IMG/VR virus record: IMGVR_UViG_3300043568_000598
Coordinates: 21,431-85,430 of that record
Reading direction: 5' to 3' (one strand)
Origin: a virus
Length of the DNA: 64,000 nt
Of the stretch, positions 2,975-59,795 are shown piece after piece. The stretch's first letter is position 1, and the number at the start of each line of letters is the position of its first letter. A program made the translations under genes and the position numbers. The notes under the pieces were generated by a model. It was not told the DNA's origin. It saw nothing but the letters and a program-made list of their open reading frames with translations, and made no database searches.

Positions 2975-2979
2975 TATTA

Positions 2980-5685: not shown

Positions 5686-5722
5686 ACTAATAATTATCTA
5701 AAATTAATAGCAGCGTTTGCAA

Positions 5723-30603: not shown

Positions 30604-31572
30604 ATGGCGTCACTCGCAGAAATCCGTGCTAAACTTCAAGAAGCACAATCAAAGTCCACAGGACAATCCACCGGCGGTGGAGACAACGCAATTTACCCAC
30701 ATTGGAACATGCAAGAAGGCAAAGAAGCTGTCGTACGTTTCTTACCTGATGGCAATCCCAACAACACATTCTTCTGGGTAGAACGTGCAATGATCAAATT
30801 GCCGTTTGCAGGTATCAAAGGTGAAACAGACAGTAGGTCAGTACAAGTACAAGTTCCTTGTGTGGAAATGTACAACGACGGCACAGTTTGCCCAATCCTT
30901 TCAGAAGTTCGTGGTTGGTTCAAAGACAAGAGTCTTGAAGAAATGGGTCGTAAGTATTGGAAAAAGCGTTCATACATTTTCCAAGGCTTTGTGGTTGAAG
31001 ATCCACTCAAGGAAGATAAACTTCCAGACAATCCTATCCGTAGATTTATTATCGGTCCCCAGATTTACGCTATCATCCGTTCAGCATTGATGGATCCGGA
31101 ATTGGATGAGTTGCCAACAGACTTCTTGAAAGGTCTGGACTTCCGTATTGCTAAGACATCTAAAGGTGGCTTCGCTGACTACTCTACTTCAAAGTGGAGC
31201 CGTCGTGAGCGTTCATTGACTGATGTCGAATCAGCGGCAGTAGAAGCACATGGTCTTTTTGATCTCAGCGGATTCTTGCCAAAGAAACCCACTGATGTAG
31301 AACTCAAGGTCATGAAAGAAATGTTTGAAGCTTCCGTTGATGGTGAAGCCTATGACATGGATCGTTGGGGTCAATACTTCAAACCAGCAGGCATGAGTCA
31401 AGCCACTGGTGATCCTAATAGACCAGCAGCCGCTGCCGCCTCTGTGCCAGACGCTGATGACGAACCAGCTCCTGTAGCCAAAGCTGCTCCAGCAGCCGCT
31501 CCAGCAGCTTCAACAGAATCTGCCAGTCGTGCGCAAGACATCCTTGCCATGATTCGCAATCGTCAGAAGTAA
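30604..31572 (+). CDS. gp32: Single-stranded DNA-binding protein gp32
   Basis: The 322-residue protein matches the T4-like gp32 family. The basic N-terminus (MASLAEIRAKLQEAQ) drives cooperativity. The core has YPHWNMQEGKEAVVRFLPDG, NNTFFWVERAMIKLPF, PCVEMYNDGTVCPI, YWKKRSYIFQGFVVEDPL and FIIGPQIYAIIRSALMDPEL. The DNA-binding core includes Cys and His residues typical of the zinc site, though the exact ligands are not certain. The C-terminal tail is Ala/Pro/Asp-rich and would contact other replication proteins. It has a strong AGGAGG site before the ATG. An upstream TTGACC-N17-CATAAT may be an early promoter. Confidence 0.92.
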   Translation: MASLAEIRAKLQEAQSKSTGQSTGGGDNAIYPHWNMQEGKEAVVRFLPDGNPNNTFFWVERAMIKLPFAGIKGETDSRSVQVQVPCVEMYNDGTVCPILSEVRGWFKDKSLEEMGRKYWKKRSYIFQGFVVEDPLKEDKLPDNPIRRFIIGPQIYAIIRSALMDPELDELPTDFLKGLDFRIAKTSKGGFADYSTSKWSRRERSLTDVESAAVEAHGLFDLSGFLPKKPTDVELKVMKEMFEASVDGEAYDMDRWGQYFKPAGMSQATGDPNRPAAAAASVPDADDEPAPVAKAAPAAAPAASTESASRAQDILAMIRNRQK

Positions 31573-31583
31573 TTAGACTAAAC

Positions 31584-31615
31584 ATAGAGTGTGGGGCAAC
31601 TCACACTCTATTTCT
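31584..31615 (+). terminator. Hairpin between gp32 and uvsX
   Basis: ATAGAGTGTG-GGGCAACT-CACACTCTAT is a perfect 10-base-pair stem with an 8-base loop, followed by TTTCTC. The T run is short, so it may attenuate rather than stop transcription, setting the ratio of gp32 to UvsX. Confidence 0.65.
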
Positions 31616-31633
31616 CAACAGGGCAAAAAAATA

Positions 31634-32713
31634 ATGGCAAAAGCATTTGATATTTCTAAATTTAGAAAGTCAATCACTAAATCTATCGACGGTTTAAGTA
31701 TTGGCTTCAACGACCCAACCGATTGGGTTAGTACAAACAACTACGCATTAAACTATCTTATCAGCGGAGACTTTAAACGTGGTATTCCACTAGGCAAGGT
31801 AACTGTGTTTGCTGGTGAAAGTGGTGCAGGTAAATCATTTATCTGTTCAGGCAACCTAGTCAAGAATGCACAAGCACAAGGCATCTTTCCAATCTTAATT
31901 GATACAGAAAACGCACTTGATGAAAAGTGGTTACACGCACTTGACGTCGACACAAGCCCAGACAAGTTGTTAAAACTTAACATGGCCATGATTGACGATG
32001 TGGCAAAGACTATTACAGAATTTGTGGCGGAATATAAAACAATGCCCGAAGACGAGCGTCCTAAAGTATTGTTCATTATCGACAGTCTTGGAATGTTACT
32101 GACTCCCACTGATGTTAACCAGTTTCAAGCCGGGGATCTTAAAGGTGACATGGGTCGTAAACCTAAAGCACTAACAGCACTTGTTCGTAACTGTGTAAAC
32201 ATGTTTGGTAGTCTAGGCATTGGGCTGGTAGCAACTAATCACACATACGCAAGTCAGGATATGTTTGACCCAGATGACAAGATCAGTGGTGGTCAAGGTT
32301 TCATTTATGCAAGCTCAATCGTAGTTGCTATGCGTAAATTAAAACTAAAACTTGATGCAGATGGCAATAAGACCACAACTGTGCAAGGTATCCGTGCAGC
32401 TTGCAAGATCATGAAAACTCGTTACGCAAAGCCGTTTGAAAGTGTACAGGTTGAGATTCCTTATGAAACAGGTATGAGTCCATATAGTGGATTAGTCGAC
32501 TTGTTCGAAGCCAAAGGCATGCTCAAGAAAGAAGGTAACAGCCTTGTCTACACTACTAAAGACGGTGAGATCATCAAGCAGTTCCGCAAGGCTTGGGAAC
32601 GCAATGAGAAAGACGGCTTAGACATTGCCATGGAAGACATTTCAAAACATGGCGAAATTTCCGCTTCAGAGATAACTACTATTGTTGAACCTGAAACGGA
32701 GATTACTGAATGA
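31634..32713 (+). CDS. uvsX: RecA-like recombinase UvsX
   Basis: The 359-residue protein, from the ATG at 31634, has Walker A VTVFAGESGAGKSFICSGN, the segment ILIDTENALDEKWLHALDVD, Walker B VLFIIDSLGMLLTPTDVNQF, and SGGQGFIYASSIVVAMRKL, all typical of T4 UvsX. It forms filaments on ssDNA for strand exchange and replication restart with UvsY and gp32. An in-frame ATG at 31589 falls within the gp32-uvsX hairpin and gives an unrelated extension, so 31634 is preferred. The stop overlaps the next gene by 4 bases. Confidence 0.94.
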   Translation: MAKAFDISKFRKSITKSIDGLSIGFNDPTDWVSTNNYALNYLISGDFKRGIPLGKVTVFAGESGAGKSFICSGNLVKNAQAQGIFPILIDTENALDEKWLHALDVDTSPDKLLKLNMAMIDDVAKTITEFVAEYKTMPEDERPKVLFIIDSLGMLLTPTDVNQFQAGDLKGDMGRKPKALTALVRNCVNMFGSLGIGLVATNHTYASQDMFDPDDKISGGQGFIYASSIVVAMRKLKLKLDADGNKTTTVQGIRAACKIMKTRYAKPFESVQVEIPYETGMSPYSGLVDLFEAKGMLKKEGNSLVYTTKDGEIIKQFRKAWERNEKDGLDIAMEDISKHGEISASEITTIVEPETEITE

Positions 32714-32943
32714 AAGAAGATTTAATTGCCGACTTATGGCATGTGGTAATTGGGCATATACCTGAAAAACAAAGGCCAGATGTGGCCACTGATTTTGTAA
32801 ACACACTGTTGGACTACGGTATCAAAGAAAGTGTATTGGACAGCCTGCAAGGAGTAGATCCCTTTCTTGACGAAGCTATCACATATGCTATCGACGGTGA
32901 AGAGATTGAAGACGATGCCGACAGCTACGACGAAGAGGAATAA
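32710..32943 (+). CDS. Conserved small acidic protein between uvsX and uvsY
   Basis: The 77-residue protein has LIADLWHVVIGHIPEKQRPD near the start, VATDFVNTLLDYGIKESVLD in the middle, and an acidic tail EEIEDDADSYDEEE. It is of a kind often found next to recombination genes of T4-like phages and is uncharacterised. Four-base overlap with uvsX and direct abutment to uvsY suggest coupled translation and a role in the same pathway, which is inference. Confidence 0.7.
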   Translation: MKEDLIADLWHVVIGHIPEKQRPDVATDFVNTLLDYGIKESVLDSLQGVDPFLDEAITYAIDGEEIEDDADSYDEEE

Positions 32944-33399
32944 ATGAATTGGTACGACAAGGTTAGTAAAGATATAAGCAACATTCCAGATGCTGCGGCC
33001 TATTATGAAGCTGAGTTAATCGAAGCAAAACAAGATGTCCGCATAGCGGGTAACATCGAGAAGGCAAGTTCGCAAATGCCCGGCATCGTGGAAGAACGCT
33101 TTAATCAACTTCAAGAAATTGAAGGTATCCTTGAGTACTTAAACATTGAACTTCGTAGACTTCGCAGTCAACATTTTCGCAAGTATTTAGAAAACTATCA
33201 ACGAGCTTTATCTTCTAGGGACTGTGAAAAGTTCGTAGAAGGTGAAGCTGACGTTGTAGATTTTGAAAAGATCATCAACGATTTTGCCCTACTACGTAAC
33301 AAGTGGTTGGGTATTATCAAAGCACTGGATCAAAAACAGTGGCATTTAAGTAACATTGTTAAACTACGAGTATCTGGGTTAGAAGACGCCAGTCTTTAA
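32944..33399 (+). CDS. uvsY: Recombination mediator UvsY
   Basis: The 151-residue protein matches T4-like UvsY (T4: 137). It contains EERFNQLQEIEGILEYLNIE, LRRLRSQHFRKYLENYQRAL and FALLRNKWLGIIKALDQKQW, and is almost wholly helical. UvsY helps load UvsX on gp32-coated DNA. The ATG begins in the base after the upstream stop. The gene ends 31 bases before a cytidylyltransferase gene with its own late promoter. Confidence 0.9.
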   Translation: MNWYDKVSKDISNIPDAAAYYEAELIEAKQDVRIAGNIEKASSQMPGIVEERFNQLQEIEGILEYLNIELRRLRSQHFRKYLENYQRALSSRDCEKFVEGEADVVDFEKIINDFALLRNKWLGIIKALDQKQWHLSNIVKLRVSGLEDASL

Positions 33400-35669: not shown

Positions 35670-35672
35670 AAT

Positions 35673-37716: not shown

Positions 37717-37720
37717 CTTA

Positions 37721-40321: not shown

Positions 40322-40874
40322 CTTGACTCCTTAACATGTTGATTATTTCATCATCTGAATATAATTTTTTGGTTTTTATAAATTCCATAAATTCAGCATA
40401 TGATACAGATTTATATGATTCTGCTGGATTAATTTTAGTGGCCGGAAGTTTGATCAATGTAAATCCAAAATTAGTGTCCATTGGATATATTTCAAATGAT
40501 GTTTCCTGTAGCATGTAATACAAGACCTTAAAAGAGTCTGAACATCGACTAGACTGGACATATTTTCTAGAAGGTGGAATCATATCATGCAGTAGAATCC
40601 ATTTGGTAGCATGGTCTATTGAATTGTTAAAATCTCGTACTACATAGTCGTAATCATGATTCGCATCAATGAAGATGATATCAAATTTTTCTTCAGCTGG
40701 CAAAGAATTAAAATATTCATCAGTTGTTCCGGTATACATCGCCTTGCCATTCATATCCACTGAGAATTTATTTTTAGCCTTGATCGAATTAAAATTAACA
40801 TTGTCATTAACTCCTAATTCTAAGTAAGAATATTCTTCAATCTTGTGTAGATGGTTGATAATAATACTACTCAT
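40314..40874 (-). CDS. SAM-dependent methyltransferase-like protein
   Basis: The 186-residue protein resembles Methyltransf_24 proteins. It has EEYSYLELGVNDNVNFNSIK as motif I (E-x-G), and FDIIFIDANHDYDYVVRDFN near residue 66 as motif IV (D-A-N-H). WILLHDMIPPSRKYV follows, typical of the same class. Such enzymes in glycan clusters methylate sugars. The canonical G-x-G-x-G loop is shortened to ELGVND. It starts nine bases after the glycosyltransferase stop. Confidence 0.7.
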   Translation of the reverse strand: MSSIIINHLHKIEEYSYLELGVNDNVNFNSIKAKNKFSVDMNGKAMYTGTTDEYFNSLPAEEKFDIIFIDANHDYDYVVRDFNNSIDHATKWILLHDMIPPSRKYVQSSRCSDSFKVLYYMLQETSFEIYPMDTNFGFTLIKLPATKINPAESYKSVSYAEFMEFIKTKKLYSDDEIINMLRSQDV

Positions 40875-40883
40875 ATGTGTTCC

Positions 40884-41525
40884 TTATATATATTTTCTTG
40901 ACTTTCGAGGAGTCGCTACTGTGCTATCAGCTGCTAAAAATGTAGTATCGATTGCTGGGCCTAGATCATAGTCATAGTGTTCTTCGGTCAATTTTCTTTT
41001 TACAAAATCTTTAGAAGCCTTTGCTTCTGGATTATATTGCGGATTATCTGTGTCAATCCATTTCTGCAAAAAATGTATTCTTGATTGATTGTAATTCCAT
41101 GACGATCTACTTTTAGAATATGCAACTTCTTCAGTTATATACATGGCAATGTTAGCTTCCTGCAAGCGAATATAAAAATCATCATCTTCGTACCCGCCAC
41201 CAACGAATCGCTCATCCATCATTCCGATTTGCCTCATCAATTGTTTTTTAAAACCAAAAAATCCAAATCTATACAGTCCAACTAATCCGTACCCTTGGTT
41301 GATGAGAGACACTGTTTTCTGCACATCAGCGGCGGTTGGCAAAACCTTATCAGACATTATGATTACAATTTCAGTGTCTGCTTTTGCTGTACACTCATTT
41401 ACTAATTTTGAAAAAGAAGGATATCCGGTGCCGTCGAAATAATTAATTTTTTCAGGAGTTATGTTCTGTTTAATGGGATCAAACAGATGAGGTTTATTTG
41501 AAATCACATAACAACTATATGACAT
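40884..41525 (-). CDS. Glycosyltransferase-like protein (GT-A type)
   Basis: The 213-residue product from the ATG at 41525 has the GT-A pattern: ADTEIVIIMSDKVLPTAAD at the position of the donor/DxD strand and RQIGMMDERFVGGGYEDDDF then YIRLQEANI near residue 115, which matches the E-D-x-D acceptor motif of glycosyltransferases of the galactosyltransferase/GT2 group. The 41555 in-frame start would overlap the upstream gene by 41 bases. The 41525 start has GGGGGA eight bases ahead, so I chose it. The acceptor is unknown. Confidence 0.68.
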   Translation of the reverse strand: MSYSCYVISNKPHLFDPIKQNITPEKINYFDGTGYPSFSKLVNECTAKADTEIVIIMSDKVLPTAADVQKTVSLINQGYGLVGLYRFGFFGFKKQLMRQIGMMDERFVGGGYEDDDFYIRLQEANIAMYITEEVAYSKSRSSWNYNQSRIHFLQKWIDTDNPQYNPEAKASKDFVKRKLTEEHYDYDLGPAIDTTFLAADSTVATPRKSRKYI

Positions 41526-42213
41526 TAAAATTCCCCCAATAACTTGTCTTTGCATTTGTTAAACTTTTTTTGCCATCCTTTTTAGTCAACGCCATACCCA
41601 TTACGTAGTTATGTACTTGAATTATGACATGATGTTGATTGATAGCATTGTCGGCAGGGAGATATGTTTTAGCATATGTGTTTAATAATTTTTCAGCGGC
41701 TGCTGGCTTGATTGCGTATCCACAACAACCTGGCATCGAGCTCTGATAGTAATCAGCTGCCGACGCCTCACCTTCGGGATTATCGTAGTAATGACGATAC
41801 CTGTCAGTTTTTTTAGGGTGACCTAACGCCAACACCAGCACATCCTTCCATTCAACCGGTACATAAGGTCTCACCAGAACAATGTCGTCTTCCCAAATAA
41901 CAATAGGTTCGTTGAGCTCCACACACTTTTGCCAAAGACGATAATGACTATAAAAGCATCCTTGGACACCCGGACTCCAATGTGAATCTGGATCCATAGT
42001 CTTAATGACACCATCGGCAGGAGGACCTTTAATGCCCCAAGGATGAATAGTTCTTCCCTCGTCCTTCATCATTTTTGTGGCATCATTCCCATAGGTGCCT
42101 TCAAATAATTCTACTTCCTCGCCGAACTCAACTAATTGATTTTTTAACTTAGTAGCGGTATCAAGTGATGCTTGAATCTTCGATAAACAAATAATAAAAT
42201 TTTTCATTGCCAA
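41515..42213 (-). CDS. Glycosyltransferase family 25-like protein
   Basis: The 232-residue protein has the GT25 layout: KNFIICLSKIQASLDTATKL at the start, HWSPGVQGCFYSHYRLWQKC around residue 80 (G-C-x-x-S-H), PIVIWEDDIVLVRPYVP with W-E-D-D, and SSMPGCCGYAIKPAAAEKLL. GT25 enzymes add galactose or glucose to lipopolysaccharide or to hydroxylysine. It overlaps neighbours by 10-11 bases on both sides and is probably one of a set acting on the same glycan. Confidence 0.82.
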   Translation of the reverse strand: MAMKNFIICLSKIQASLDTATKLKNQLVEFGEEVELFEGTYGNDATKMMKDEGRTIHPWGIKGPPADGVIKTMDPDSHWSPGVQGCFYSHYRLWQKCVELNEPIVIWEDDIVLVRPYVPVEWKDVLVLALGHPKKTDRYRHYYDNPEGEASAADYYQSSMPGCCGYAIKPAAAEKLLNTYAKTYLPADNAINQHHVIIQVHNYVMGMALTKKDGKKSLTNAKTSYWGNFNVI

Positions 42214-43037
42214 TACGCTTCTGTTCTTTGAACTTTTAGATCTTCAGGTTTACTACGACCTAATTTCTTTCTACCACCTTTGAGATGATCTAACCATGCG
42301 CCCCATTGACTATTAATTAATGGGTGTCCTTCGCCTGACGTCATTCCCGGTGCTGGGCGTAGATCATGCAAGTGTGCTGCCCAATCTAGTTGTCGCATCT
42401 GCGGAAATTTTACTCGTACCGCATCGAACACAAAACTGTCATGCCACTCAGCTAACTGAAAAATTCCTTGCTCTGCTTGATCATAGAATCTTTGGAATTC
42501 TTTGAGAAAAAGTTGAATGTTAGGTGATCGCAGATTCATAGCATACAGGCCGCATTCCGAATATTTGCCTTTTCTGCCAAGATAGCATAGTTCAGAATCT
42601 GCAGGAATCATTCTATAAAGATCTTTCATAGTGATAGGACTGTGACAAATAGTATCTGCATCCATCCACACTAAAATATCTGCATCTGTTTCTTTAGCGC
42701 AGTCAAAGATTGCATAAACTTTGTGAGCAAATCTCACAGCATGCCATTTAAATCCCTTACCTGAATCTTTTCTTAGAGATCTCACCGGATCGGCTGAAAC
42801 ATCGCCGTTGGCCTTAGGCACATCTTTCCATTGATTTTTAAAAGTCATCAATTCCGGAATCTCTTCTAGTCGTTTTAGAGTAACATGGCTGTGGTCACGA
42901 ATGGCAGGATTACATTGTTCTGGATAGATGTGTAAAATTACTTCATGAGGCCAGTTTGCACAGAATGTATCAATCATACGTTGTGCATATTTTTGTAAAC
43001 CTTCTTCGTGGAAGGTGGTAACAACTGCTATTTTCAT
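42204..43037 (-). CDS. Glycosyltransferase-like protein with DxD
   Basis: The 277-residue protein begins MKIAVVTTFHEEGLQKYAQR and has TDADILVWMDADTICHSPIT around residue 120 with the DxD motif, then SELCYLGRKGKYSECGLYAM and FQLAEWHDSFVFDAVRVKFP. The organisation matches GT8-like or hypothetical phage glycosyltransferases. It overlaps 43034-43432 by four bases and 41515-42213 by ten. The acceptor is not evident. Confidence 0.75.
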   Translation of the reverse strand: MKIAVVTTFHEEGLQKYAQRMIDTFCANWPHEVILHIYPEQCNPAIRDHSHVTLKRLEEIPELMTFKNQWKDVPKANGDVSADPVRSLRKDSGKGFKWHAVRFAHKVYAIFDCAKETDADILVWMDADTICHSPITMKDLYRMIPADSELCYLGRKGKYSECGLYAMNLRSPNIQLFLKEFQRFYDQAEQGIFQLAEWHDSFVFDAVRVKFPQMRQLDWAAHLHDLRPAPGMTSGEGHPLINSQWGAWLDHLKGGRKKLGRSKPEDLKVQRTEAYWQ

Positions 43038-43432
43038 CTATAATGTTCCCATACGTGAAATATTCCCTGAAGACTGGTACAGGCCCATCCAGAGTCGTAT
43101 AAAATTTTTACTTTTTCATTTTCTACACGATCGCCGCCTTCGACAAACAGTTTTGCATTGTGTTTACGCCATATAACTTCTACTTTATCAAGATGATCCA
43201 ACTGGTCAATGTCAACAAAGATTGATGACATATCCTGCAAGTGATCTAATTTAACAAAGTTTTCTTTATACACGAGATTTTTTGCCTTAATATCCGGCGG
43301 CACTTCGCTGACCACAAATACTGTGTCATAAATTGCCAAGACTTGGTCTAAAATACCAAAAGCCGAACCTAACACCAGAGCATGCGTGTTGTTACGTGAC
43401 AGTTTCATCAGTCTTTTTTGAAATTTATTCAT
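43034..43432 (-). CDS. Hypothetical protein
   Basis: The 132-residue product has an alternating strand-helix pattern: NNTHALVLGSAFGILDQVLA, TVFVVSEVPPDIKAKNLVYK, SSIFVDIDQLDHLDKVEVIW, KLFVEGGDRVENEKVKILYD. This looks like a truncated Rossmann-like or methyltransferase-like fold without a cofactor motif. It is the first gene of the minus-strand glycan unit. The longer GTG start at 43447 is possible but 43432 is an ATG. No promoter is clear on that strand. Confidence 0.6.
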   Translation of the reverse strand: MNKFQKRLMKLSRNNTHALVLGSAFGILDQVLAIYDTVFVVSEVPPDIKAKNLVYKENFVKLDHLQDMSSIFVDIDQLDHLDKVEVIWRKHNAKLFVEGGDRVENEKVKILYDSGWACTSLQGIFHVWEHYR

Positions 43433-43482
43433 AATCCATAAATACACAACAGTATTAACTACGTAGATTATTTATTAAAATT

Positions 43483-44307
43483 ATGCGCTTCAGATTATAT
43501 CGCGAATATGGTGCTTTGAACAGTCCGCCGGTGTTTGACGCCCTAGAACACGGCCTAAAACAAATGGGTCATGAGATTGTCAATGACCAAGAAGATGTGG
43601 CTGTGATTTGGTCTGTGCTTTGGGCTGGCCGAATGAGATCAAATAAAATGATCTATGACCGATGCCAACAGCAAGGCAAACCTGTAATGATTATAGAAGT
43701 CGGAAATCTCAAACGTGGGGAGACTTGGAGATTAAGTCTCAATCATATCAATAATCTTGGTAGTTTCGGTAATGAAAAAAATCTAGATCATTCACGTCCC
43801 CAACAGTTAGGCATGAAATTACAGCCAGTTTCGGAAAAACGTCGTGGCGAAATATTAATTGCCTGCCAGCATCAAGAAAGTCTGCAGTGGCAGGGGATGC
43901 CTGAGATGAAAAACTGGGTAGCAGACACTATTGAAAAAATAAAACAGAATACTCATAGACGAATACGTGTGAGATATCACCCTCGTTCGGCATTTCCGTT
44001 CAAGCAGTCTGGTGTAGTAGTAGAACGGCCCGTGCTGGTTCCGGGCAGTTATGACGATTTTGATATTTTTTACAATTATCATTGTGTAATCAATCACAAC
44101 AGTGGCCCAGCTGTTCAAGCAGCTATCAGCGGTGTGCCTGTACTCTGTGATCAATCCAGCCTTGCAGCTGACCTTAGTGTTAAATGGTCAGAATTAGACA
44201 GTCCGAGTCTGCCTGACAGAACTGAGTGGTTCGTGAAACTTTGCCATACTGAGTGGACTGTGGAAGAAATACGCCAAGGCATACCAATCACAAGATTATT
44301 CGGTTGA
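43483..44307 (+). CDS. Capsule-synthase-like glycosyltransferase paralog 5
   Basis: The 274-residue protein shares the plan of the four paralogs at 34872-38533. It has VAVIWSVLWAGRMRSNKMIY in the N-terminal part, GEILIACQHQESLQWQGMPE, VADTIEKIKQNTHRRIRVRY then HPRSAFPFKQSG with the R-x-H-P motif, and HCVINHNSGPAVQAAISGVP with the N-S-G-P...G-V-P signature. It is isolated from the others by the minus-strand glycan unit. Its stop codon is embedded in the -35 of the next promoter. Confidence 0.7.
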   Translation: MRFRLYREYGALNSPPVFDALEHGLKQMGHEIVNDQEDVAVIWSVLWAGRMRSNKMIYDRCQQQGKPVMIIEVGNLKRGETWRLSLNHINNLGSFGNEKNLDHSRPQQLGMKLQPVSEKRRGEILIACQHQESLQWQGMPEMKNWVADTIEKIKQNTHRRIRVRYHPRSAFPFKQSGVVVERPVLVPGSYDDFDIFYNYHCVINHNSGPAVQAAISGVPVLCDQSSLAADLSVKWSELDSPSLPDRTEWFVKLCHTEWTVEEIRQGIPITRLFG

Positions 44308-44338: not shown

Positions 44339-45523
44339 ATGCTATCATCAGAATTTGCCGAAGACATATTTGTTGAGTTTTACAAACTGGTTGTCCAACA
44401 GACGATCTCTATTCAAGGTCAAGATTTCTCGCCCATCTCAAGTTTTCATGAAAAAATCATCAATGGTAGCGAGCTTACTAAAAATCAGGCAAATTTTCTC
44501 ATAAAATTATTGGAAAAATACAAGATCGTATCTGCTCAGGCAGGAATTGATTATAGACCTCAACTACAAGATCTTAAATGGCGCACTGGATTTCGTGTAC
44601 TTGATCTCAGCAAAAAAATCTACGTAGAACTGCGCGAAAAGAAACTGGAAATCTGTCTAAAATTTCCTTATCAGCTGAAAAAAGAATTCGAAGACGAGAT
44701 CGACAACGGAAAAAATATTCAAGCACACAGTTTTTGGGATCACGAACAAAAGGTCAGACGCTTGGATTTCTATCAGTATAATCTAATTGCATTATATGAA
44801 TTTGCTCTAAAACATAATTTTGAAATCGATGACACATTTATGAATGTGCTGGCCGATGTTGAGGAAATTTGGCAAAATTCTGAACATGCAGTGCCGAGAA
44901 GTGAAATCACTATCTACGGAGTATCATTAAAAAACGCCTCTGAAGAAACTCAAACATGGTGGGCAGATAATAGGACCAATGACCCTTACAAAGATCTACT
45001 GTTGGCCAAAAGCATGGGGTTTTTATACCACGAAAAACCACTGAATTTAGCAGAAAAAATCGCCAGCAGATCTGAAAACACTTTCTGGATCAAAGATAAT
45101 AAAGATTTTTTTGCGTTGACAAAACTGTTTTCTGGAAGGATCTGTGTGCTGTTGGATAGGAGTAGTGCTACTCTGCCGTGGTTACAGAATTTTGTGGCAG
45201 ATGCTGATAAAAATGGTGTTTCACGTGAAGAAATTAAAGTGTGTTTTCGAGATAGCAAAGATGCTAACAGCGGCCTTAATGAGTGGATCAGAATTGCAGA
45301 AGTCGGTGGTCGAGTTGAAACCGGAAAGATTTTAATCTTCGAATCTAAACCTGCCAAGTGGTTGTTTAAGTTCAGCAATGATGTTACACTGTTAGTAACA
45401 AATAACATTTTTCCGCCAACAAACATCATGGCGAGAGATTGGTTCAGCTGTCATCCTTGTGTAATATATCTCGGTGACACTAAACCAACAGAAACCAAAG
45501 GACAAAAAATTGTCGAATTGTAA
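44339..45523 (+). CDS. Uncharacterised protein upstream of uvsW
   Basis: This 394-residue protein is not recognised. The N-terminal 60 residues are helical (FAEDIFVEFYKLVVQQ, LTKNQANFLIKLLEKYKIVS). Residues 90-180 have an alpha/beta section with many aromatic residues. The C-terminal half has GRICVLLDRSSATLPWLQNF, TGKILIFESKPAKWLFKFSN and TLLVTNNIFPPTNIMARDWF. The spacing of these strands is reminiscent of a RecA-fold ATPase without a P-loop, so it might be an accessory subunit. Its location before uvsW and its early-type promoter support a role in replication or recombination. Confidence 0.65.
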   Translation: MLSSEFAEDIFVEFYKLVVQQTISIQGQDFSPISSFHEKIINGSELTKNQANFLIKLLEKYKIVSAQAGIDYRPQLQDLKWRTGFRVLDLSKKIYVELREKKLEICLKFPYQLKKEFEDEIDNGKNIQAHSFWDHEQKVRRLDFYQYNLIALYEFALKHNFEIDDTFMNVLADVEEIWQNSEHAVPRSEITIYGVSLKNASEETQTWWADNRTNDPYKDLLLAKSMGFLYHEKPLNLAEKIASRSENTFWIKDNKDFFALTKLFSGRICVLLDRSSATLPWLQNFVADADKNGVSREEIKVCFRDSKDANSGLNEWIRIAEVGGRVETGKILIFESKPAKWLFKFSNDVTLLVTNNIFPPTNIMARDWFSCHPCVIYLGDTKPTETKGQKIVEL

Positions 45524-46964
45524 GTTAACAATTAAAGATGAAGTAAACATCAAGGTAGACGGACTGCGAGTTGAAACACGACGAAAAATTGTCAATAAAT
45601 TAAAGTTCGATTTGCCTTATGCCCGGCATATGCCTGCATATAAATTAGGTCGCTGGGATGGAACTAAAACCTATTTTAATATCGGCGGCAGTGGATATCT
45701 TGCACACCTTGATGTGATTCTAGCAGTGATCGATGACGAAGGATATGACATCGAGGTTGAAGATTTAAGGACACATCAGGAATTAAAATTCGCCGCCATC
45801 GATGAAAATTATTGGGCCAACTTAGGTAAGACGTGGCCTAAAGGACATCAACAAGCCGGAGAACCTATTGTGCTGAGAGACTATCAGTACGAGGTAATCA
45901 ACAAGTTCTTGGAGAATCCACAGGCCTTGCAAGAAGTTGCTACCGGTGCTGGTAAAACGATTACCACTGCGACACTGAGTCATTTATGTGAACCATATGG
46001 ACGCACAATGGTAATCGTGCCTAACAAGAGTCTTGTGGTGCAGACAGAAGAAGACTATCGAAATTTAGGGCTGGACGTTGGTGTATACTTTGGCGATAGA
46101 AAAGAATTAAACAAGACACATACTATATGTACTTGGCAGAGTTTGAATGTGTTAGACAAGAAAAGTTATGACAATGACACTATGACATTGGCAGAATTCT
46201 GTGAAGGTGTCTGTGCAATCATTGTTGACGAAGTTCATCAAGCCAAGGCCGAAGTATTAACTAAACTACTAACACAGAACTTTCGCAACTGTCCTATTCG
46301 CTGGGGGTTGACAGGAACTGTACCTAAAGACGCATGGGAATTTCAAGGCATATTAGCCAGTATAGGTCCTGTGATAAATCAAGTGTCTGCACATGATTTG
46401 CAAGAAAAAGGTGTACTGGCACAATTGAATATCAATGTGTTGCAGACCAATGATGTGCAGGTGTTTACGTCATTCCAGGACGAATACGCATTTCTTGTCA
46501 CGGACGACACTCGATTGCAATGGATTGCTAATAAGATTGCTGCGTTATCCGCCACCGGCAACACTCTGGTATTGATCAATAGGATCGACACCGGCAATAA
46601 ATTAATCGCACTACTACCTCAAGCAGTGTTTGTCAGTGGCGGCATGAAGTTAGACGACCGCAAGGAAGAATACGATGAAATTAAAACAAGTGATGACAAG
46701 ATTATTTTGGCGACTTATGGTGTGGCCGCTGTGGGTATTAATATTCCAAGGATTTTTAATCTGGTTCTTCTTGAACCCGGAAAGAGCTTTGTCCGCGTTA
46801 TACAAAGCATTGGGCGAGGCATTAGAAAAGCAGAAGACAAAGATCACGTAGAAATCTGGGACATAACCAGCGCCTGCAAATATAGCAAGAGACATCTTAC
46901 AGAAAGAAAAAAGTTTTATAAAGAGGCCAAGTACCCCTTTACCATTACCAAGGTTAACATATGA
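45510..46964 (+). CDS. uvsW: DNA/RNA helicase UvsW
   Basis: A superfamily 2 helicase of 484 residues. It has an N-terminal UvsW domain (VETRRKIVNKLKFDLPYARH, YKLGRWDGTKTYFNIGGSGY), then IVLRDYQYEVINKFLENPQA (Q-motif-like), ALQEVATGAGKTITTATLSH (motif I), CAIIVDEVHQAKAEVLTKLL (DEVH, motif II), RWGLTGTVP (motif III), LATYGVAAVGINIPRIFNLV and RVIQSIGRGIRKAEDKDHVE (motif VI). It unwinds R-loops and branched DNA. I prefer the TTG at 45510, seven bases after AAAGGA; a GTG at 45474 has no ribosome site and deeper overlap with the upstream gene. Confidence 0.93.
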   Translation: MSNCKLTIKDEVNIKVDGLRVETRRKIVNKLKFDLPYARHMPAYKLGRWDGTKTYFNIGGSGYLAHLDVILAVIDDEGYDIEVEDLRTHQELKFAAIDENYWANLGKTWPKGHQQAGEPIVLRDYQYEVINKFLENPQALQEVATGAGKTITTATLSHLCEPYGRTMVIVPNKSLVVQTEEDYRNLGLDVGVYFGDRKELNKTHTICTWQSLNVLDKKSYDNDTMTLAEFCEGVCAIIVDEVHQAKAEVLTKLLTQNFRNCPIRWGLTGTVPKDAWEFQGILASIGPVINQVSAHDLQEKGVLAQLNINVLQTNDVQVFTSFQDEYAFLVTDDTRLQWIANKIAALSATGNTLVLINRIDTGNKLIALLPQAVFVSGGMKLDDRKEEYDEIKTSDDKIILATYGVAAVGINIPRIFNLVLLEPGKSFVRVIQSIGRGIRKAEDKDHVEIWDITSACKYSKRHLTERKKFYKEAKYPFTITKVNI

Positions 46965-49963: not shown

Positions 49964-50163
49964 TGAGTAGACAGTTATTAGATGGCAGCGTAGTTGAAGA
50001 ACAGGATACAGCATCAGAGCTCAGTATCAGAACCAAATGCCCAGCCAAGTGGTTATTAGTTGACAGAGAAACTGGAGAAATATACACTGCCTATACTACT
50101 CCAGGTCCACGTCAATGGAAGAAAATTGATTATGCTACATGGAGCCCTCCAACTGATGCCTGA
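49963..50163 (+). CDS. Small conserved hypothetical protein
   Basis: The 66-residue product has KCPAKWLLVDRETGEIYTAY then TTPGPRQWKKIDYATWS, a short beta-rich motif (W-x-L-V-D-R-E-T-G-E) found in several small phage proteins. It overlaps the DnaE-like gene by eight bases (ATGCCTGA). Function unknown. Confidence 0.6.
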   Translation: MSRQLLDGSVVEEQDTASELSIRTKCPAKWLLVDRETGEIYTAYTTPGPRQWKKIDYATWSPPTDA

Positions 50164-50734
50164 CATAGATATAGATTTTGTGGATAGAGATTCCGCATTA
50201 AAATTATTCAAACATATACCAGCCAGCCGTGTTGACAACGAAACGCTGACCAAACATAACACAGGTGTATATTTACAAAGTGTTCCGATGGATGCTGAGA
50301 AAGCTGTGTGCAGTGTACCGTACGATCACAGTGACGCGGATCAATATTTCAAGATTGATTTTTTAAATGTGGGTATCTACAAAGGTGTTCGAGATGAGGC
50401 ACACCTTATTCAACTCATGGAGACTGAGCCATTATGGGATCTATTACAAGACAACGATTTCGTCCAGAACCTGTTCCATGTGAATGGGCATGGGTCTATT
50501 CTGAGACAAATGAAACCAGAATCTATAGAGCAGTTGGCCGCAGTACTGGCAATGATCCGACCCGCGAAACGTTATCTGATTGGGAAAGAATGGACTACGG
50601 TGATGACAGAAGTTTGGATGAAACCTGACAATGAAGAATACTTCTTCAAGCAATCGCATGCCACTGCATATGCTGTGGCCATTGTGGTGCAGATGAATTT
50701 AATCTGTGAACAGATCAGTTACGGATATCAATAA
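50156..50734 (+). CDS. Mini DnaE-like protein (fragment of DNA polymerase III alpha palm/fingers)
   Basis: The 192-residue protein starts MPDIDIDFVDRDSALKLFKH, matching the palm segment M-P-D-F-D-V-D-F of E. coli DnaE that carries two catalytic aspartates. KHNTGVYLQSVPMDAEK matches KHAGGVVIAPT; YFKIDFLNVGIYKGV matches the K-F-D-F-L-G-L segment with the third aspartate. ILRQMKPESIEQLAAVLAMI then RPAKRYLIG matches the fingers helix, and FFKQSHATAYAVAIVVQMNL matches the N-K-S-H-S-A-A-Y-A-L segment. It lacks PHP, thumb and beta-binding domains of the 1160-residue enzyme. Activity as a polymerase alone is doubtful. It sits between gp62-like and oxygenase genes. Confidence 0.75.
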   Translation: MPDIDIDFVDRDSALKLFKHIPASRVDNETLTKHNTGVYLQSVPMDAEKAVCSVPYDHSDADQYFKIDFLNVGIYKGVRDEAHLIQLMETEPLWDLLQDNDFVQNLFHVNGHGSILRQMKPESIEQLAAVLAMIRPAKRYLIGKEWTTVMTEVWMKPDNEEYFFKQSHATAYAVAIVVQMNLICEQISYGYQ

Positions 50735-51388: not shown

Positions 51389-51982
51389 ATGCAACCATTT
51401 AAAATAATAGATAATGTCATTTCAAAAGAATATCAAGATTATATTGAAGAACTTCTGTTAAACAGCAATGACTTGCCTTGGTTTTTAAATAGGAATCTCA
51501 ATGATCATGATCAAACTGATAATTCATTACCTGGGTTGGCTATTCAATCTATCAGTGACGGGAAAGATCATGGTATGCTGGCATTGATATTTAGAAGCTT
51601 GGCGTATAGTTTGGCAGAAAAACTTGATATTTCAATTAATGAAATTTTCAACGCTAGAACATTTTTACAACTACCTGGCGGTAATCTCAGCGAAACAATT
51701 GCAAGAGAATACCATGTAGATTATGCTAAACCGCATAAAGTATTATTGTATTATGTGAATGATTCGGACGGTGATACTATAGTATTGAAACAAAAATATC
51801 CTTTCTCACACAATAGGATCAGTGGTCTGACTCAAGGAGAGATATTACAAACGATATCTCCAAAAAAAGGAAGAGTAGTGATGTTTGACGGATCACATTT
51901 TCATTCTAGTACCGTGCCCAGCAAACAACTAAGATGTGTAATTAATATAGACGTTACATTGACAAGTTATAAAAACAGTTAA
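51389..51982 (+). CDS. Putative 2OG-Fe(II) oxygenase
   Basis: The 197-residue protein has NLSETIAREYHVDYAKPHKV around 110-129, with H-x-D as the first iron ligands, then LLYYVNDSDGDTIVLKQKYP. KKGRVVMFDGSHFHSSTVPS near 163-182 carries the distal histidine, and QLRCVINIDV ends with the 2OG-binding arginine. It is a classic small phage dioxygenase. It is convergent with the gene at 51979-52350, overlapping by four bases. Confidence 0.8.
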   Translation: MQPFKIIDNVISKEYQDYIEELLLNSNDLPWFLNRNLNDHDQTDNSLPGLAIQSISDGKDHGMLALIFRSLAYSLAEKLDISINEIFNARTFLQLPGGNLSETIAREYHVDYAKPHKVLLYYVNDSDGDTIVLKQKYPFSHNRISGLTQGEILQTISPKKGRVVMFDGSHFHSSTVPSKQLRCVINIDVTLTSYKNS

Positions 51983-52350
51983 ACTATCTTTCTAACTAGA
52001 GTAATTGATTTACGCTTGATTCTCTTGACAATAATATCGTTGAGACTGGTGCAAGGCCCATGCACAAGTTTGACATCTTTGGTTGAGAAATTCTTGATCA
52101 CATATCTAAAATCAAGAATTTCGCGAGCCAAGAAGATATTGATAGGAATTTGCCTGTTGGACTCCCACCACCATGCTTCTCCTAGCTCTATAAACCGCTG
52201 TTTTTCTTCGTCGGTTTTTATAGCAGAATAGTCGTACATGCTGGTGACCTGAGCATCTTGGTTGATAATGATGCCCACATATTCGTGGCTGACATGCACT
52301 ATAACGCTGATAAAAGGGAAATTTTCTTGTAGGTTAGTTGTTATTCTCAT
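51979..52350 (-). CDS. Conserved T4-like hypothetical protein
   Basis: The 123-residue protein has YDYSAIKTDEEKQRFIELGE then AWWWESNRQIPINIFLA around residues 35-75, and KLVHGPCTSLNDIIVKRIKR near the end. I know this W-W-W-E-S-N-R-x-I-P-I signature from marine T4-like phages as a hypothetical protein. It may be a small beta protein. It is divergent from the structural gene at 52382; no leader is present before its own ATG. Confidence 0.65.
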   Translation of the reverse strand: MRITTNLQENFPFISVIVHVSHEYVGIIINQDAQVTSMYDYSAIKTDEEKQRFIELGEAWWWESNRQIPINIFLAREILDFRYVIKNFSTKDVKLVHGPCTSLNDIIVKRIKRKSITLVRKIV

Positions 52351-53221: not shown

Positions 53222-54241
53222 ATGACTCTTGTCGTTGATAAATTTCGAACACTACTGCCGCCTCGTGCTAAATCCAGCCCATCAGGTTGGACATCATTCA
53301 ACGCACCCTGTTGCCAGCATAGAGGCCATAGTCCAGATACTCGCAAACGTGCTGGTATAAGATTTGACGGTAATGGCGTAGTCTATAACTGTTTTAATTG
53401 CAAATTTACCACTGGATGGCAACCTGGCAGCAGCATCGGCGAGAAGATGAAAACGCTGTGCAGATGGTTGGGGGCCAGCGAAGACACTATCAAAGAATTA
53501 GTGTTTGAGGCACTGAAAACCGAAGGCAATGAGTATCAACCGTTGGCGCAGCAGACTCAGTTGACATTTGAAGATAAACCATTACCAGAAGGTGCAATGC
53601 CTTTGTTAGAATGGGTAAACAGTAAGTATTGGAAAGACATCCAACACGAACTTGAACCAGTTATTGCATATGTTGTTAGCCGAGGCTACGATCCGTTTGA
53701 CGGTAACTATTATTGGAGTCCTGCTCCTGGCTACGACGGCAGAGTAATAATTCCTTTTATGTGGGAAGGTCGTGTTGTAGGGAATACTGCACGAAAAGTA
53801 ACTGCTGGTAAACTCAAATATCTTTCAGACCAACACCCTCATTTTGTATTCAACTTTGATCAACAAAAAGAAAATCAGAAGTATATATTTGTATGTGAAG
53901 GCCCCTTTGATGCTCTAGCAGTCGGTGGTGTTGCACTGCTTACCAATGAGATTGCTGAACAGCAAAGTCGTATTATTAATAGTTTGGGTGCAGAAGTTAT
54001 TGTAATTCCCGATCAAGATCGAGCGGGGTTGGTGTTGTTTGATCGTGCAGCAGAACTTGGGTGGGCAATAGCTATGCCCAACTGGGACTCTGATGTAAAA
54101 GATGTAGCAGACGCAGTATTAAGGTATGGAAAATTGTTTGTGATTGTTGATGCAATAAAAACTGCACAACAAGGGCAAATCAAAATCAACATGGCCAAGA
54201 AGCAACAAGAACATAAATTGGAACTATTAGAAAATGTTTAA
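53222..54241 (+). CDS. gp61: DNA primase gp61
   Basis: The 339-residue protein has an N-terminal zinc-binding domain (SFNAPCCQHRGHSPDTRKRA, then VVYNCFNCKFTTGWQPG) and a Toprim domain (KYIFVCEGPFDALAVGGVAL, then AEVIVIPDQDRAGLVLFDRA) with the usual E and D-x-D residues. The segment YDGRVIIPFMWEGRVVGNTA and KYLSDQHPHFVFNFDQ matches marine T4-like gp61. It makes RNA primers with gp41. The size matches T4 gp61 (342). Its promoter leaves no leader. Confidence 0.93.
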   Translation: MTLVVDKFRTLLPPRAKSSPSGWTSFNAPCCQHRGHSPDTRKRAGIRFDGNGVVYNCFNCKFTTGWQPGSSIGEKMKTLCRWLGASEDTIKELVFEALKTEGNEYQPLAQQTQLTFEDKPLPEGAMPLLEWVNSKYWKDIQHELEPVIAYVVSRGYDPFDGNYYWSPAPGYDGRVIIPFMWEGRVVGNTARKVTAGKLKYLSDQHPHFVFNFDQQKENQKYIFVCEGPFDALAVGGVALLTNEIAEQQSRIINSLGAEVIVIPDQDRAGLVLFDRAAELGWAIAMPNWDSDVKDVADAVLRYGKLFVIVDAIKTAQQGQIKINMAKKQQEHKLELLENV

Positions 54242-54350
54242 AAGAATAATAGATTTTCTGCTCTATCCTTGGAACAGATATCAAGAACACCGAAGATTCA
54301 AACGTAAGTTGAAAGAACTACGTAAACGTGATCCGTTTATCTACAAATGA
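54234..54350 (+). CDS. Small basic protein (38 residues) between primase and carbamoyltransferase
   Basis: The ORF MFKRIIDFLLYPWNRYQEHR then RFKRKLKELRKRDPFIYK is very basic and likely helical. It overlaps the primase stop by eight bases and the next ATG by four (ATGA), so its reading frame is translationally coupled on both sides. The ending R-K-R-D-P-F-I-Y-K is of a type seen in small proteins of marine T4-like phages. The N-terminal half is hydrophobic enough to touch a membrane. Function unknown. Confidence 0.7.
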   Translation: MFKRIIDFLLYPWNRYQEHRRFKRKLKELRKRDPFIYK

Positions 54351-55816
54351 TTACTTGGGGAATCTCTGCTGCCAGCCATAACGCTGCCCTGGCCGTGTTT
54401 CGAGATAATCAATTGGTATTTGCCAGCGAAAGCGAAAGATTCAGCGGAGTAAAAAACGATCCTGACCTCAATCAGAAGTTAGTAGATCATGCAAGAACAT
54501 TCGGCGAGCCTGATCGTGTATGCTGGTACGAAAAGCCATGGAGGAAAACTCTAAGGCAGTTGACAGCAGGTCAGGGCTGGCATGATAATAATGTTAAGAG
54601 ATATCTCAAGAAGTATAATATTACAGCACCCGTTCGCACTGTAGATCATCATCTCAGCCATGCGGCTGCAGGATATTTCACCAGTGAATTTGACAATGCC
54701 TGTGTACTGGTAATTGATGCCATCGGTGAATTTGAAACAATGACCCAATGGGAAGCTGTAGGCGACAAGTTAACCAAACAGCGCAGTGTAGAATATCCCA
54801 ACAGTCTCGGCCTGTGGTATTCTGCAATGACACAGCGAATTGGGCTCAAACCCAATGAAGAAGAATATATTCTGATGGGCATGGCAGCATTAGGCAATCC
54901 TAATAAATTAACCAGAGATCTGTTAACTGATTTTGTTGCATTGCCTAATGACGATTATCAATTGCCTTTTAGAATAAAAAACAATCTACATCGTGGCTGT
55001 GAGTCTTGGCGTCAAGATCTCAATACCATGAATGACCGATTTAATATCGCAGCTGCCACTCAGGCAGTTTATGAATTGGCTTTTGAAAGAATACTGCAAA
55101 CAGCCATGTCTACTACCAACAGTCGCAATCTTGTGCTGATGGGAGGGTGTGCATTGAACTGTGCCGCTAATCACATAGCCTTTAAGTATTTTGATCGTGT
55201 ATGGATCATGCCTGCGCCCGGAGACAGCGGCAGCAGTATAGGTGCAGTCTTAGCAGATCGTAAACAACATACAACTTGGCCTGGACCATATCTAGGTTAC
55301 GATATGGGGTATACCGCCACTAACAGAGAAATTGTTGAATATATCACAACCCATAAGATCTGCGGAGTGGCACGTGGTCGTGCAGAATTTGGACCTAGAG
55401 CATTAGGCAATAGAAGTCTCGTAGCAGATCCTCGAGGCCCACAAGTCAAGGATCGAGTTAACATGATCAAAGGCAGAGAAAATTTTAGACCATTCGCTCC
55501 TGCAATCCTAGAAGAACATGCAGATCGATATTTTGAAATGCCCACAGAAAAAACTCCTTACATGCAGTTCACTGCCAAATGTCGCAAACCTGATTCATAC
55601 CCTGCTATCATACATGCAGATGGCACCAGCAGAGTTCAAACCGTAGGCAAGAACGATAATCCAGAATTTAGAGCCTTGCTAGAAACTTGGTATGATCTCA
55701 CCGGCTGTCCTATGCTGTTGAATACCAGTCTTAACATCAAAGGCAAGCCCATGGTCAATGATCACGCAGATCGACTGAATTGGCAGGCCAAGCATGGTTT
55801 ACCTGTGTTTAATTAG
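54347..55816 (+). CDS. Carbamoyltransferase (NodU/CmcH family)
   Basis: The 489-residue protein has MITWGISAASHNAALAVFRD, then VRTVDHHLSHAAAGYFTSEF with the H-x-x-S-H-A metal motif, LVIDAIGEFETMTQWE, NLVLMGGCALNCAANHIAFK, PAPGDSGSSIGAVLAD, and the C-terminal YrdC-like part: CGVARGRAEFGPRALGNRSL and GRENFRPFAPAILEEHADRY. These transfer carbamoyl from carbamoyl phosphate to a hydroxyl via carbamoyl-adenylate. Substrates in this family are sugars or antibiotic cores. It is slightly shorter than NodU (about 560). It may decorate phage glycans or an unknown metabolite. Confidence 0.9.
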   Translation: MITWGISAASHNAALAVFRDNQLVFASESERFSGVKNDPDLNQKLVDHARTFGEPDRVCWYEKPWRKTLRQLTAGQGWHDNNVKRYLKKYNITAPVRTVDHHLSHAAAGYFTSEFDNACVLVIDAIGEFETMTQWEAVGDKLTKQRSVEYPNSLGLWYSAMTQRIGLKPNEEEYILMGMAALGNPNKLTRDLLTDFVALPNDDYQLPFRIKNNLHRGCESWRQDLNTMNDRFNIAAATQAVYELAFERILQTAMSTTNSRNLVLMGGCALNCAANHIAFKYFDRVWIMPAPGDSGSSIGAVLADRKQHTTWPGPYLGYDMGYTATNREIVEYITTHKICGVARGRAEFGPRALGNRSLVADPRGPQVKDRVNMIKGRENFRPFAPAILEEHADRYFEMPTEKTPYMQFTAKCRKPDSYPAIIHADGTSRVQTVGKNDNPEFRALLETWYDLTGCPMLLNTSLNIKGKPMVNDHADRLNWQAKHGLPVFN

Positions 55817-55833: not shown

Positions 55834-57249
55834 ATGATAAAAGATTACGGATACGAAATACAAAAGTTATATCTTGAACTCATGCTGGCAGATGCAGAAG
55901 TGTTTGTTCGCTGTCAAGGTATTTTTGATCACAGCCTGTTTGATCGAAAACTACAAGATGCCGCAGAGTTTGTGAATGTGTATGCCAAAGAATATAGTGT
56001 GCTGCCAGACTATGACATGGTAAATGCTTCTTGTAGAACTGATTTAAAGCGACCAGAAGAGATCAAAGAAGGCCACAATACTTGGCTCATGGATGAGTTT
56101 GAAAAGTTCACACAACATAAAGCATTAGAACGTGCAATCATTCAATCAGCCGATCTTCTTGAAAAACATGATTACGGTGCAGTAGAGGTTCTAATCAAAG
56201 AAGCAGTACAGATTGGTCTTGCTCGCGACATGGGTACAGATTACTTTGCTGATCCTCGCGGCAGACTGTTAGGCATCAAAGACAAGAACGGACAAGTAAG
56301 CACAGGCTGGCCCTGTATGGATCGTAAACTGTTTGGTGGTATGAATCGCGGTGAATTGAATATCTTTGCAGGTGGATCAGGTGCAGGTAAATCATTATTC
56401 TTGGCTAATCTAGGTGTTAACTGGGCCTTGGCAGGTTTGAATGTGGTATATCTAACACTAGAACTTTCAGAAGCACTGGTCAGTATGCGTATCGATGCAA
56501 TGATAACAGGCACGTCGACTAAAGACATTTTCAAAGAATTAGATGATGTTGAAATGAAAGTTAAAATGATTGGCAAGAAGTCAGGCATGTTACAGATCAA
56601 ATATATGCCTTCAGGTAAGACTGCCAACGACATTCGCGCATATCTAAAAGAATATGAAATCAAAGTAGGCAAGAAAGTAGATGTATTGTTAGTCGACTAC
56701 TTAGACTTGTTGATGCCTGTGAGCAAGAAGATTAGCCCAGCAGACTTGTTTATCAAAGACAAGTATGTGTCAGAAGAACTGCGCAATCTAGCAGTGGAAA
56801 AGAACTGTGTGTTTGTGACAGCGGCGCAGTTGAATCGTGGTGCTGTAGAAGAAGTAGAGTTTGATCATAGTCATATTAGTGGTGGCTTATCTAAGATCCA
56901 GACAGCAGACAATGTGTTTGGTATCTTTACAAGTCGTGCTATGCGTGAACGTGGACGCTATCAAATTCAGTTAATGAAGACACGTTCATCAAGTGGTGTG
57001 GGCATGAAGATTGATCTAGAATTTAATCTAGAAAGTCTGCGTATCAGTGATCTTCCAGAAGACGAACAAGAAAGCACAAATGGTGGATCTCGCGGCGGAT
57101 CCAGCATCATTGAACAGATCAAACGTAAAACTGAGATCAGCAATAGAGAAGAACCCTCTGAAGGCATACCTGTGGCCAAGGTGCGAGCACAGGTCGAAAG
57201 CACTAAACTTCGTGAAATTTTAAACAGCATGAACGCAGATGAAGAGTAA
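55834..57249 (+). CDS. gp41: Replicative helicase gp41 (DnaB-like)
   Basis: The 471-residue protein has an N-terminal domain with QKLYLELMLADAEVFVRCQG, then the RecA core: STGWPCMDRKLFGGMNRGEL, then NIFAGGSGAGKSLFLANLGV (Walker A G-G-S-G-A-G-K-S), VVYLTLELSEALVSMRIDAM, VDVLLVDYLDLLMPVSKKIS (Walker B), FVTAAQLNRGAVEEVEFDHS and HISGGLSKIQTADNVFGIFT. It is the hexameric helicase moving on the lagging strand with gp61. Size close to T4 gp41 (475). It overlaps the next gene by 11 bases. Confidence 0.94.
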   Translation: MIKDYGYEIQKLYLELMLADAEVFVRCQGIFDHSLFDRKLQDAAEFVNVYAKEYSVLPDYDMVNASCRTDLKRPEEIKEGHNTWLMDEFEKFTQHKALERAIIQSADLLEKHDYGAVEVLIKEAVQIGLARDMGTDYFADPRGRLLGIKDKNGQVSTGWPCMDRKLFGGMNRGELNIFAGGSGAGKSLFLANLGVNWALAGLNVVYLTLELSEALVSMRIDAMITGTSTKDIFKELDDVEMKVKMIGKKSGMLQIKYMPSGKTANDIRAYLKEYEIKVGKKVDVLLVDYLDLLMPVSKKISPADLFIKDKYVSEELRNLAVEKNCVFVTAAQLNRGAVEEVEFDHSHISGGLSKIQTADNVFGIFTSRAMRERGRYQIQLMKTRSSSGVGMKIDLEFNLESLRISDLPEDEQESTNGGSRGGSSIIEQIKRKTEISNREEPSEGIPVAKVRAQVESTKLREILNSMNADEE

Positions 57250-59357: not shown

Positions 59358-59795
59358 ATGCTGCATATCATCACAGACATTCGAGACAATCTCATGAATC
59401 TCATCAAAGACGATCCAGTACGGCCCGAATTGCCTGCGGATTTTCGTGTAAATTCAAACTCAAAAATCTTCGTGTTGCAGGACGATGAAACCCAGCAGCC
59501 CCTGGCAGTGACCTGCGTGAAGTTCCTAAATCAAATTCCTCACAATGTAGATGAATTAGCAGAGCTCACTGTGAATACCAATACTGCGGTGTTCTATACC
59601 ATTTGGAGTTATGCTGCTGGTGCTGGCCGTAGACTGATAGAAGAAGCACAGCAAGAAATTCAGAAGCAACAGCCTGAAATTGACACTTACGTGACTCTGA
59701 GCCCTAAAACAGAAATGGCTCGCAGATTCCATCTGAAAAACGGTGCGGAAGTGTTCAGAGAAAACGCAGAAACAGTGAACTATCTGTACAGATAA
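59358..59795 (+). CDS. GNAT-like acetyltransferase-related protein
   Basis: The 145-residue protein has the outline of a small GNAT: SNSKIFVLQDDETQQPLAVT (beta strands), FYTIWSYAAGAGRRLIEEAQ (A-G-x-G-R-R-L acetyl-CoA loop and helix), and VTLSPKTEMARRFHLKNGAE then VFRENAETVNYLYR, with the N-x-A-R-x-F-H/Y-x-K-x-G-A-E end pattern typical of GNATs. The pyrophosphate loop A-A-G-A-G-R-R fits R/Q-x-x-G-x-G/A. Its substrate is unknown. Similar proteins appear in marine T4-like phages. It is convergent with the gene at 59796. Confidence 0.7.
   Translation: MLHIITDIRDNLMNLIKDDPVRPELPADFRVNSNSKIFVLQDDETQQPLAVTCVKFLNQIPHNVDELAELTVNTNTAVFYTIWSYAAGAGRRLIEEAQQEIQKQQPEIDTYVTLSPKTEMARRFHLKNGAEVFRENAETVNYLYR

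Follow-up and report, generated by a model that had tools for sequence, protein, structure and literature searches.

A virus genome fragment with the C-terminal half of a split minimal DNA polymerase III alpha, and the probable separately encoded partner

Introduction

The closest described system is the split minimal DNA polymerase III alpha that Iyer et al. 2021 (Viruses 13:63, PMC7824862) reported in group 2.2 jumbo phages. There the N- and C-terminal proteins are distantly encoded, alongside a family B polymerase. The authors suggested that the split enzyme works together with the family B enzyme, either on one strand or during repair, and put forward the minimal form as a model of the ancestral enzyme. 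We refer to the two proteins as the N-half and the C-half. In phage CBB, CBB_328 (172 aa) was reported as a single protein, a 'truncated DNA polymerase III alpha' (PMC5259590); by its size and its description, CBB_328 belongs to the N-half family, and CBB carries the C-half too. A cluster of marine jumbo phages has a PF07733 signature (PMC9123017), which may be the N-half. No biochemical data for the split minimal polymerase III alpha were found in the literature searched.

DnaE can also be divided between two genes in cyanobacteria, where the two halves carry intein pieces and are ligated. In Bacillus phage KLEB27-3 (OM634661.1, positions 2813-7183), polymerase III alpha is divided into two CDSs that flank an HNH endonuclease gene, a split of a different kind from that between the N-half and the C-half.

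Here we analyze a window of 64,000 nucleotides of virus DNA (IMG/VR record IMGVR_UViG_3300043568_000598, positions 21,431 to 85,430) that encodes a C-half. The family has been known since 2021, and the window protein is a further member. Relative to those parts of the published accounts that we consulted, our additions are structure models of both halves, residue conservation counted over 160 loci, the exact pairing of the halves in 11 genomes, a comparison of their trees, and a phage of 141 kb.

Results

The C-half gene of the window is an unbroken open reading frame of 192 codons with a GGAG 11 bases before its ATG (Table 1). The initial annotation had described the product as a mini DnaE that keeps the catalytic aspartates of polymerase III alpha, and profile search bore this out: the protein matched phrog_11778 (DNA polymerase) at 1.7e-64, a similarity well outside what chance would give, and phrog_405, the full-length phage DnaE family, at 3.7e-5. 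In the alignment, D3 and D5 correspond to D401 and D403 of E. coli DnaE, K66 and the KIDF aspartate D68 to K553 and D555, R135 of the IRPAK segment (residues 134-138) to R639, and H168 and Y172 to H760 and Y764. The motifs are in the same order as in E. coli DnaE and internal deletions lie between them, as had been claimed. D5 and D68 are separated by 63 residues in the C-half and by 152 residues in E. coli DnaE, and the stretch after RP is also shorter. The MAFFT pairing of H34 with E. coli H451 is doubtful; motif order suggests a match to the segment after the thumb.

Table 1. Features of the C-half gene and of the T4-type replication and recombination genes in the window (positions are those of the window).
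Feature	Position	Strand	Basis or remark
gp32-like SSB	30604-31572	+	weak match, 1e-4, below Pfam cut-off
UvsX/RecA	31589-32713	+
UvsY	32944-33399	+
UvsW-like SF2 helicase, 5' side of C-half	45474..46964	+	ResIII, DEAD, Helicase_C
C-half of split minimal DNA polymerase III alpha	50156..50734	+	192 aa, phrog_11778
PDIDIDF motif, C-half residues 2-8	50159..50179	+	DxDxD in 80/80 loci
KIDF motif, C-half residues 66-69	50351..50362	+	KxDxL in 80/80 loci
RPAK motif (R135, P136, K138), shortened fingers	50558..50569	+	alignment; weak PF17657 match at 110-137
KQSHATAYA segment, C-half residues 165-173	50648..50674	+	alignment
Small antisense gene downstream of C-half	51979..52350	-	phrog_11637
Toprim primase (gp61-like)	53222..54241	+	Toprim_2 at 4e-4, just below Pfam cut-off
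DnaB/gp41-like replicative helicase	55834..57249	+	profile match

The C-half is related to the DnaE catalytic core and consists of the metal-binding palm part and shortened fingers. Unlike full-length bacterial DnaE or PolC, the 192-residue protein contains no GS motif, PHP or thumb; judged from the known DnaE domains, we take the thumb and most of the fingers to be gone. At least 554 IMG/VR loci encode relatives of the C-half, and among the best 80 of these, DxDxD, KxDxL, RPxK and H(A)..Y are each present in every one. The three aspartates singled out in the initial annotation (D3, D5 and D68) are thus conserved throughout this set.

Similarity of the C-half to cellular DnaE in sequence alone is modest to weak. 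Against E. coli DnaE alone, the hhalign probability was 3%. In a profile search of the PDB, DnaE (0.12) ranked lower than an unrelated hydroxylase (0.034), and a PDB search with the C-half as a single sequence found nothing. PF17657 was reached at 0.01 by only 4 of 26 members of the C-half family. We therefore give more weight to the predicted structure. An AlphaFold2 model built from 36 sequences had a mean pLDDT of 85.2, and when it was compared with the PDB by Foldseek, ranks 1 to 16 were all polymerase III alpha or other bacterial replicase entries. The best match was 4iqj (E 2.8e-4, probability 1.00), and unrelated matches began at E 0.58, although the query TM-scores were low, about 0.3-0.4. 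The predicted fold matches the DnaE palm, as the initial annotation had supposed.

A PF07733 search of two complete phages that carry the C-half returned a second small ORF in each, of 172 and 177 residues, with GLGRGSS or GVGRGSS and with NEFLKW or DEFLN at the end. These ORFs belong to the N-half family (phrog_11127), a separate gene of about 155-190 codons. The N-half is the part of the palm that directly precedes PDxDxDF in DnaE, and it carries the nucleotide-binding motif GxGRGS. PF07733 was matched by all 43 aligned N-half members (positions 12-94 in the reference member). For the N-half AlphaFold model (pLDDT 93.5), the first 15 Foldseek matches were all to polymerase III alpha, PolC or another bacterial replicase, among them 4iqj at 1.3 A over 71 residues. 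The proposal that the protein lacks all other DnaE domains was therefore correct for the C-half polypeptide and incomplete for the system, since the palm half with the GS motif is a separate gene in relatives.

The break point between the two proteins is sharply defined: the N-half ends with EF(L/F)(K/R) and the C-half starts with PDIDIDF (EFLK/PDIDIDF). In IMG/VR, a single-sequence N-half query gave nothing and an alignment query succeeded. GxGRGS was present in 80 of 80 N-half loci, DxDxD followed downstream in the same ORF in none of the 80, and no fused N-half/C-half gene was found in 160 loci (80 per half). Rejoining of the halves by an intein was considered and rejected. In contrast to cyanobacterial DnaE, the phage N-half leaves no room for an intein, because its ORF stops 35-43 residues past the start of the GxGRGS motif (80 ORFs). 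The C-half has at most 56 open codons upstream (80 loci), and the intein halves that mark the split in split-intein DnaE are absent.

The two halves occur together. Exactly one N-half and one C-half, plus a family B polymerase, were found in each of 11 phage genomes: fEgEco12, Phosso, Slickus01, Atu_ph07, PA5oct, Vibrio 2.275.O (a partial genome as deposited, 349 kb), XacN1, SCTP-2, RaK2, XaC1 and RAS14. Six long contigs from relatives likewise encode both halves, and most of the long related contigs have a family B polymerase. Among 50,697 phage records, 97 contain the N-half and 90 the C-half; the matches include 9 in 'Bacteriophage' records (fecal contigs where sampled) and one listed ordinary Bacillus-phage DnaE, and apart from these the genus tallies are nearly equal. 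The relatives in other phages that the initial annotation had proposed to seek are numerous, and the two genes are found in many large T4-like phages. Trees of the two halves agree (Mantel r 0.74, 0 of 10,000 permutations, 17 genomes), and such congruence is expected for co-inherited genes from shared descent alone. A DnaQ/epsilon-like exonuclease was rejected as an obligate third partner, being present in only 8 of the 11 genomes.

Distances between the N-half and C-half genes are about 11 kb in Slickus01, about 14-15 kb in RAS14 and XacN1, about 30-44 kb in RaK2, Vibrio 2.275.O and PA5oct, and more than 100 kb in Atu_ph07, SCTP-2 and Phosso, and the order of the two genes differs among genomes. 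The C-half lies between a UvsW-like helicase and the primase/helicase in many phages, and in several the genes close to the N-half include GroES and/or the gp44 clamp loader. In Alishewanella phage Slickus01 (OQ508957.1, 141,644 bp, circular), both halves are present and the C-half follows shortly after a clamp loader gene. As jumbo phages are usually taken to start at 200 kb, Slickus01 is a sub-jumbo representative of the group.

In the window, the C-half lies in a replication module, as had been noted, with the UvsW-like helicase, the primase and the DnaB/gp41-like helicase nearby. A small minus-strand gene is similarly placed downstream in most relatives, the likeness being one of position. 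T4-type recombination and replication genes of the window genome also occupy 30604..33399 (+). The group 2 replication set of gp32-type SSB, UvsW-type helicase and DnaB/gp41 helicase is present, the gp32 match being weak. Neither the N-half (by profile search) nor a family B polymerase was found in the whole record of 85,430 bases, and an N-half motif search of the window gave one GRGS match only, out of context. Because the record is a fragment, these absences are not evidence of loss, and the N-half/C-half pair is here deduced from relatives. The N-half is likewise absent from a 280-kb related contig that encodes the C-half and a family B polymerase. Six related contigs place the N-half about 20-26 kb upstream of their family B polymerase; since the corresponding site falls at or beyond the end of the 280-kb contig, we read the absence there as truncation.

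Discussion

The C-half of the window belongs to the same family as the split polymerase III alpha of group 2.2 jumbo phages (PMC7824862). It is a standalone C-terminal protein with Mg2+-binding aspartates and a template-binding region. That family has distant genes for an NTP-binding N part and a Mg2+- and template-binding C part, together with T4-type replication genes and a family B polymerase. We see no difference in kind; the window record, a fragment, itself has the C-half and T4-type genes, and the N-half and the family B polymerase are those of its relatives. Like E. coli DnaE and Taq DnaE (4iqj/2hpi), the phage form keeps GxGRGS, PDxDxDF, KxDF, RP and KSHxxAYA in order. Unlike bacterial DnaE and PolC, it is made of two polypeptides, has greatly shortened fingers and is without PHP, thumb and the clamp- and tau-binding parts.

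We propose that the C-half is, with good probability, one half of a two-gene minimal polymerase III alpha that serves as a non-covalent accessory polymerase beside the family B replicase. The C-half holds the three aspartates that bind metal, and by homology the N-half, through its GS motif, would partly bind the phosphates of the incoming nucleotide. Because the break splits the palm between GxGRGS and PDIDIDF, the active site is incomplete in each protein by itself; with the metals on the C-half and the nucleotide phosphates partly on the N-half, catalysis would need both. Since an intein is absent, the halves would pair non-covalently, presumably as a heterodimer. The paired halves would rebuild one family C catalytic core without PHP, thumb, clamp-binding part and tau-binding tail. 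In vivo, such a pair would be a small accessory DNA polymerase, acting for example in gap filling, in repair or on one strand. As a T4-type replisome is already in place, we infer that an accessory role is the most likely.

The two halves together have about 360 residues, with the nucleotide-binding motif on one and the catalytic metals on the other. Because the thumb is missing, polymerase activity of the predicted pair on duplex DNA is not assured, and we hold with moderate confidence that the pair is a working DNA polymerase, in which a single active site is built from two separately encoded proteins with neither thumb nor PHP. The pol-beta-type fold is common to many other nucleotidyltransferases. 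The halves could pair and yet form a palm that does not copy a template, using another substrate or processing primers or ends as a nucleotidyltransferase. The lack of a thumb-equivalent stretch and the short spacing between D5 and D68 would suit such an enzyme, as would a fold that serves so many of them. However, the fingers elements RPxK and K.H..Y are kept and both genes are among replisome genes, and we consider this reading unlikely.

A role as inhibitor or decoy of the host replicase, suggested in the initial annotation, is considerably less probable still. The C-half, alone or with the N-half, would then compete with the polymerase III alpha of the host for binding to clamp, tau or epsilon, which would fit its small size and its homology to the core of the host enzyme. 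However, judging from the known DnaE domains, the C-half lacks the parts through which DnaE contacts clamp and tau, the metal-binding residues are invariant although a decoy would not need them, and each of the 11 phage genomes encodes the nucleotide-binding partner. The suggestion of a relic, with both genes as no-longer-functional fragments of a former DnaE gene, could draw on the weak similarity to cellular DnaE and the many deleted parts, but we find it scarcely credible, since ORFs and motifs are intact in 80 of 80 loci per half across deep divergence, the halves consistently co-occur, and neither a relic nor a decoy would need both halves of the active site to be kept intact.

If the accessory two-gene polymerase that we propose is real, it would rank with the smallest polymerases of family C and would serve as a second, dedicated polymerase in addition to the family B replicase. 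A palm split between the nucleotide-binding motif and the metal-binding aspartates is very unusual, and it has been kept across deep divergence. If active, the pair would define a minimal catalytic core for family C, and it would put to the test the published idea (PMC7824862) that cores of this two-part kind are similar to the ancestral bacterial replicase, which is directly testable with each half below 200 codons.

Other genes in the window

The gene at 51389-51982 (+) matches the PHROG family 'DNA endonuclease V' at 8.5e-32, yet it also matches a 2OG-Fe(II) oxygenase family, and the PHROG name is probably wrong. A carbamoyltransferase gene (PF02543/PF16861) at 54347-55816 (+) lies between the primase and the DnaB helicase. 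A long run of sugar-nucleotide and glycosyltransferase-like genes, judged by eye, extends over 33431-44307; one of them (33431-34198) encodes a fusion of a cytidylyltransferase with a mannose-6-phosphate isomerase cupin. A protein of 145 residues at 59358-59795 (+) matches the malonyl-CoA decarboxylase C-terminal domain at 1.1e-8, which is odd for a phage.

The 1181-residue ORF at 17743-21288 (+) was considered as a full DnaE and rejected, as it is the tail sheath. Its match to the sheath C-terminal domain is limited to the last ~100 residues, and this sheath may carry very large extra domains. The 694-residue repetitive protein at 10158-12242 (+), which had no Pfam match, is encoded with two 90-nt repeats in tandem, 76% alike, and a 146-nt repeat in three copies, and is probably a virion fibre or decoration protein.
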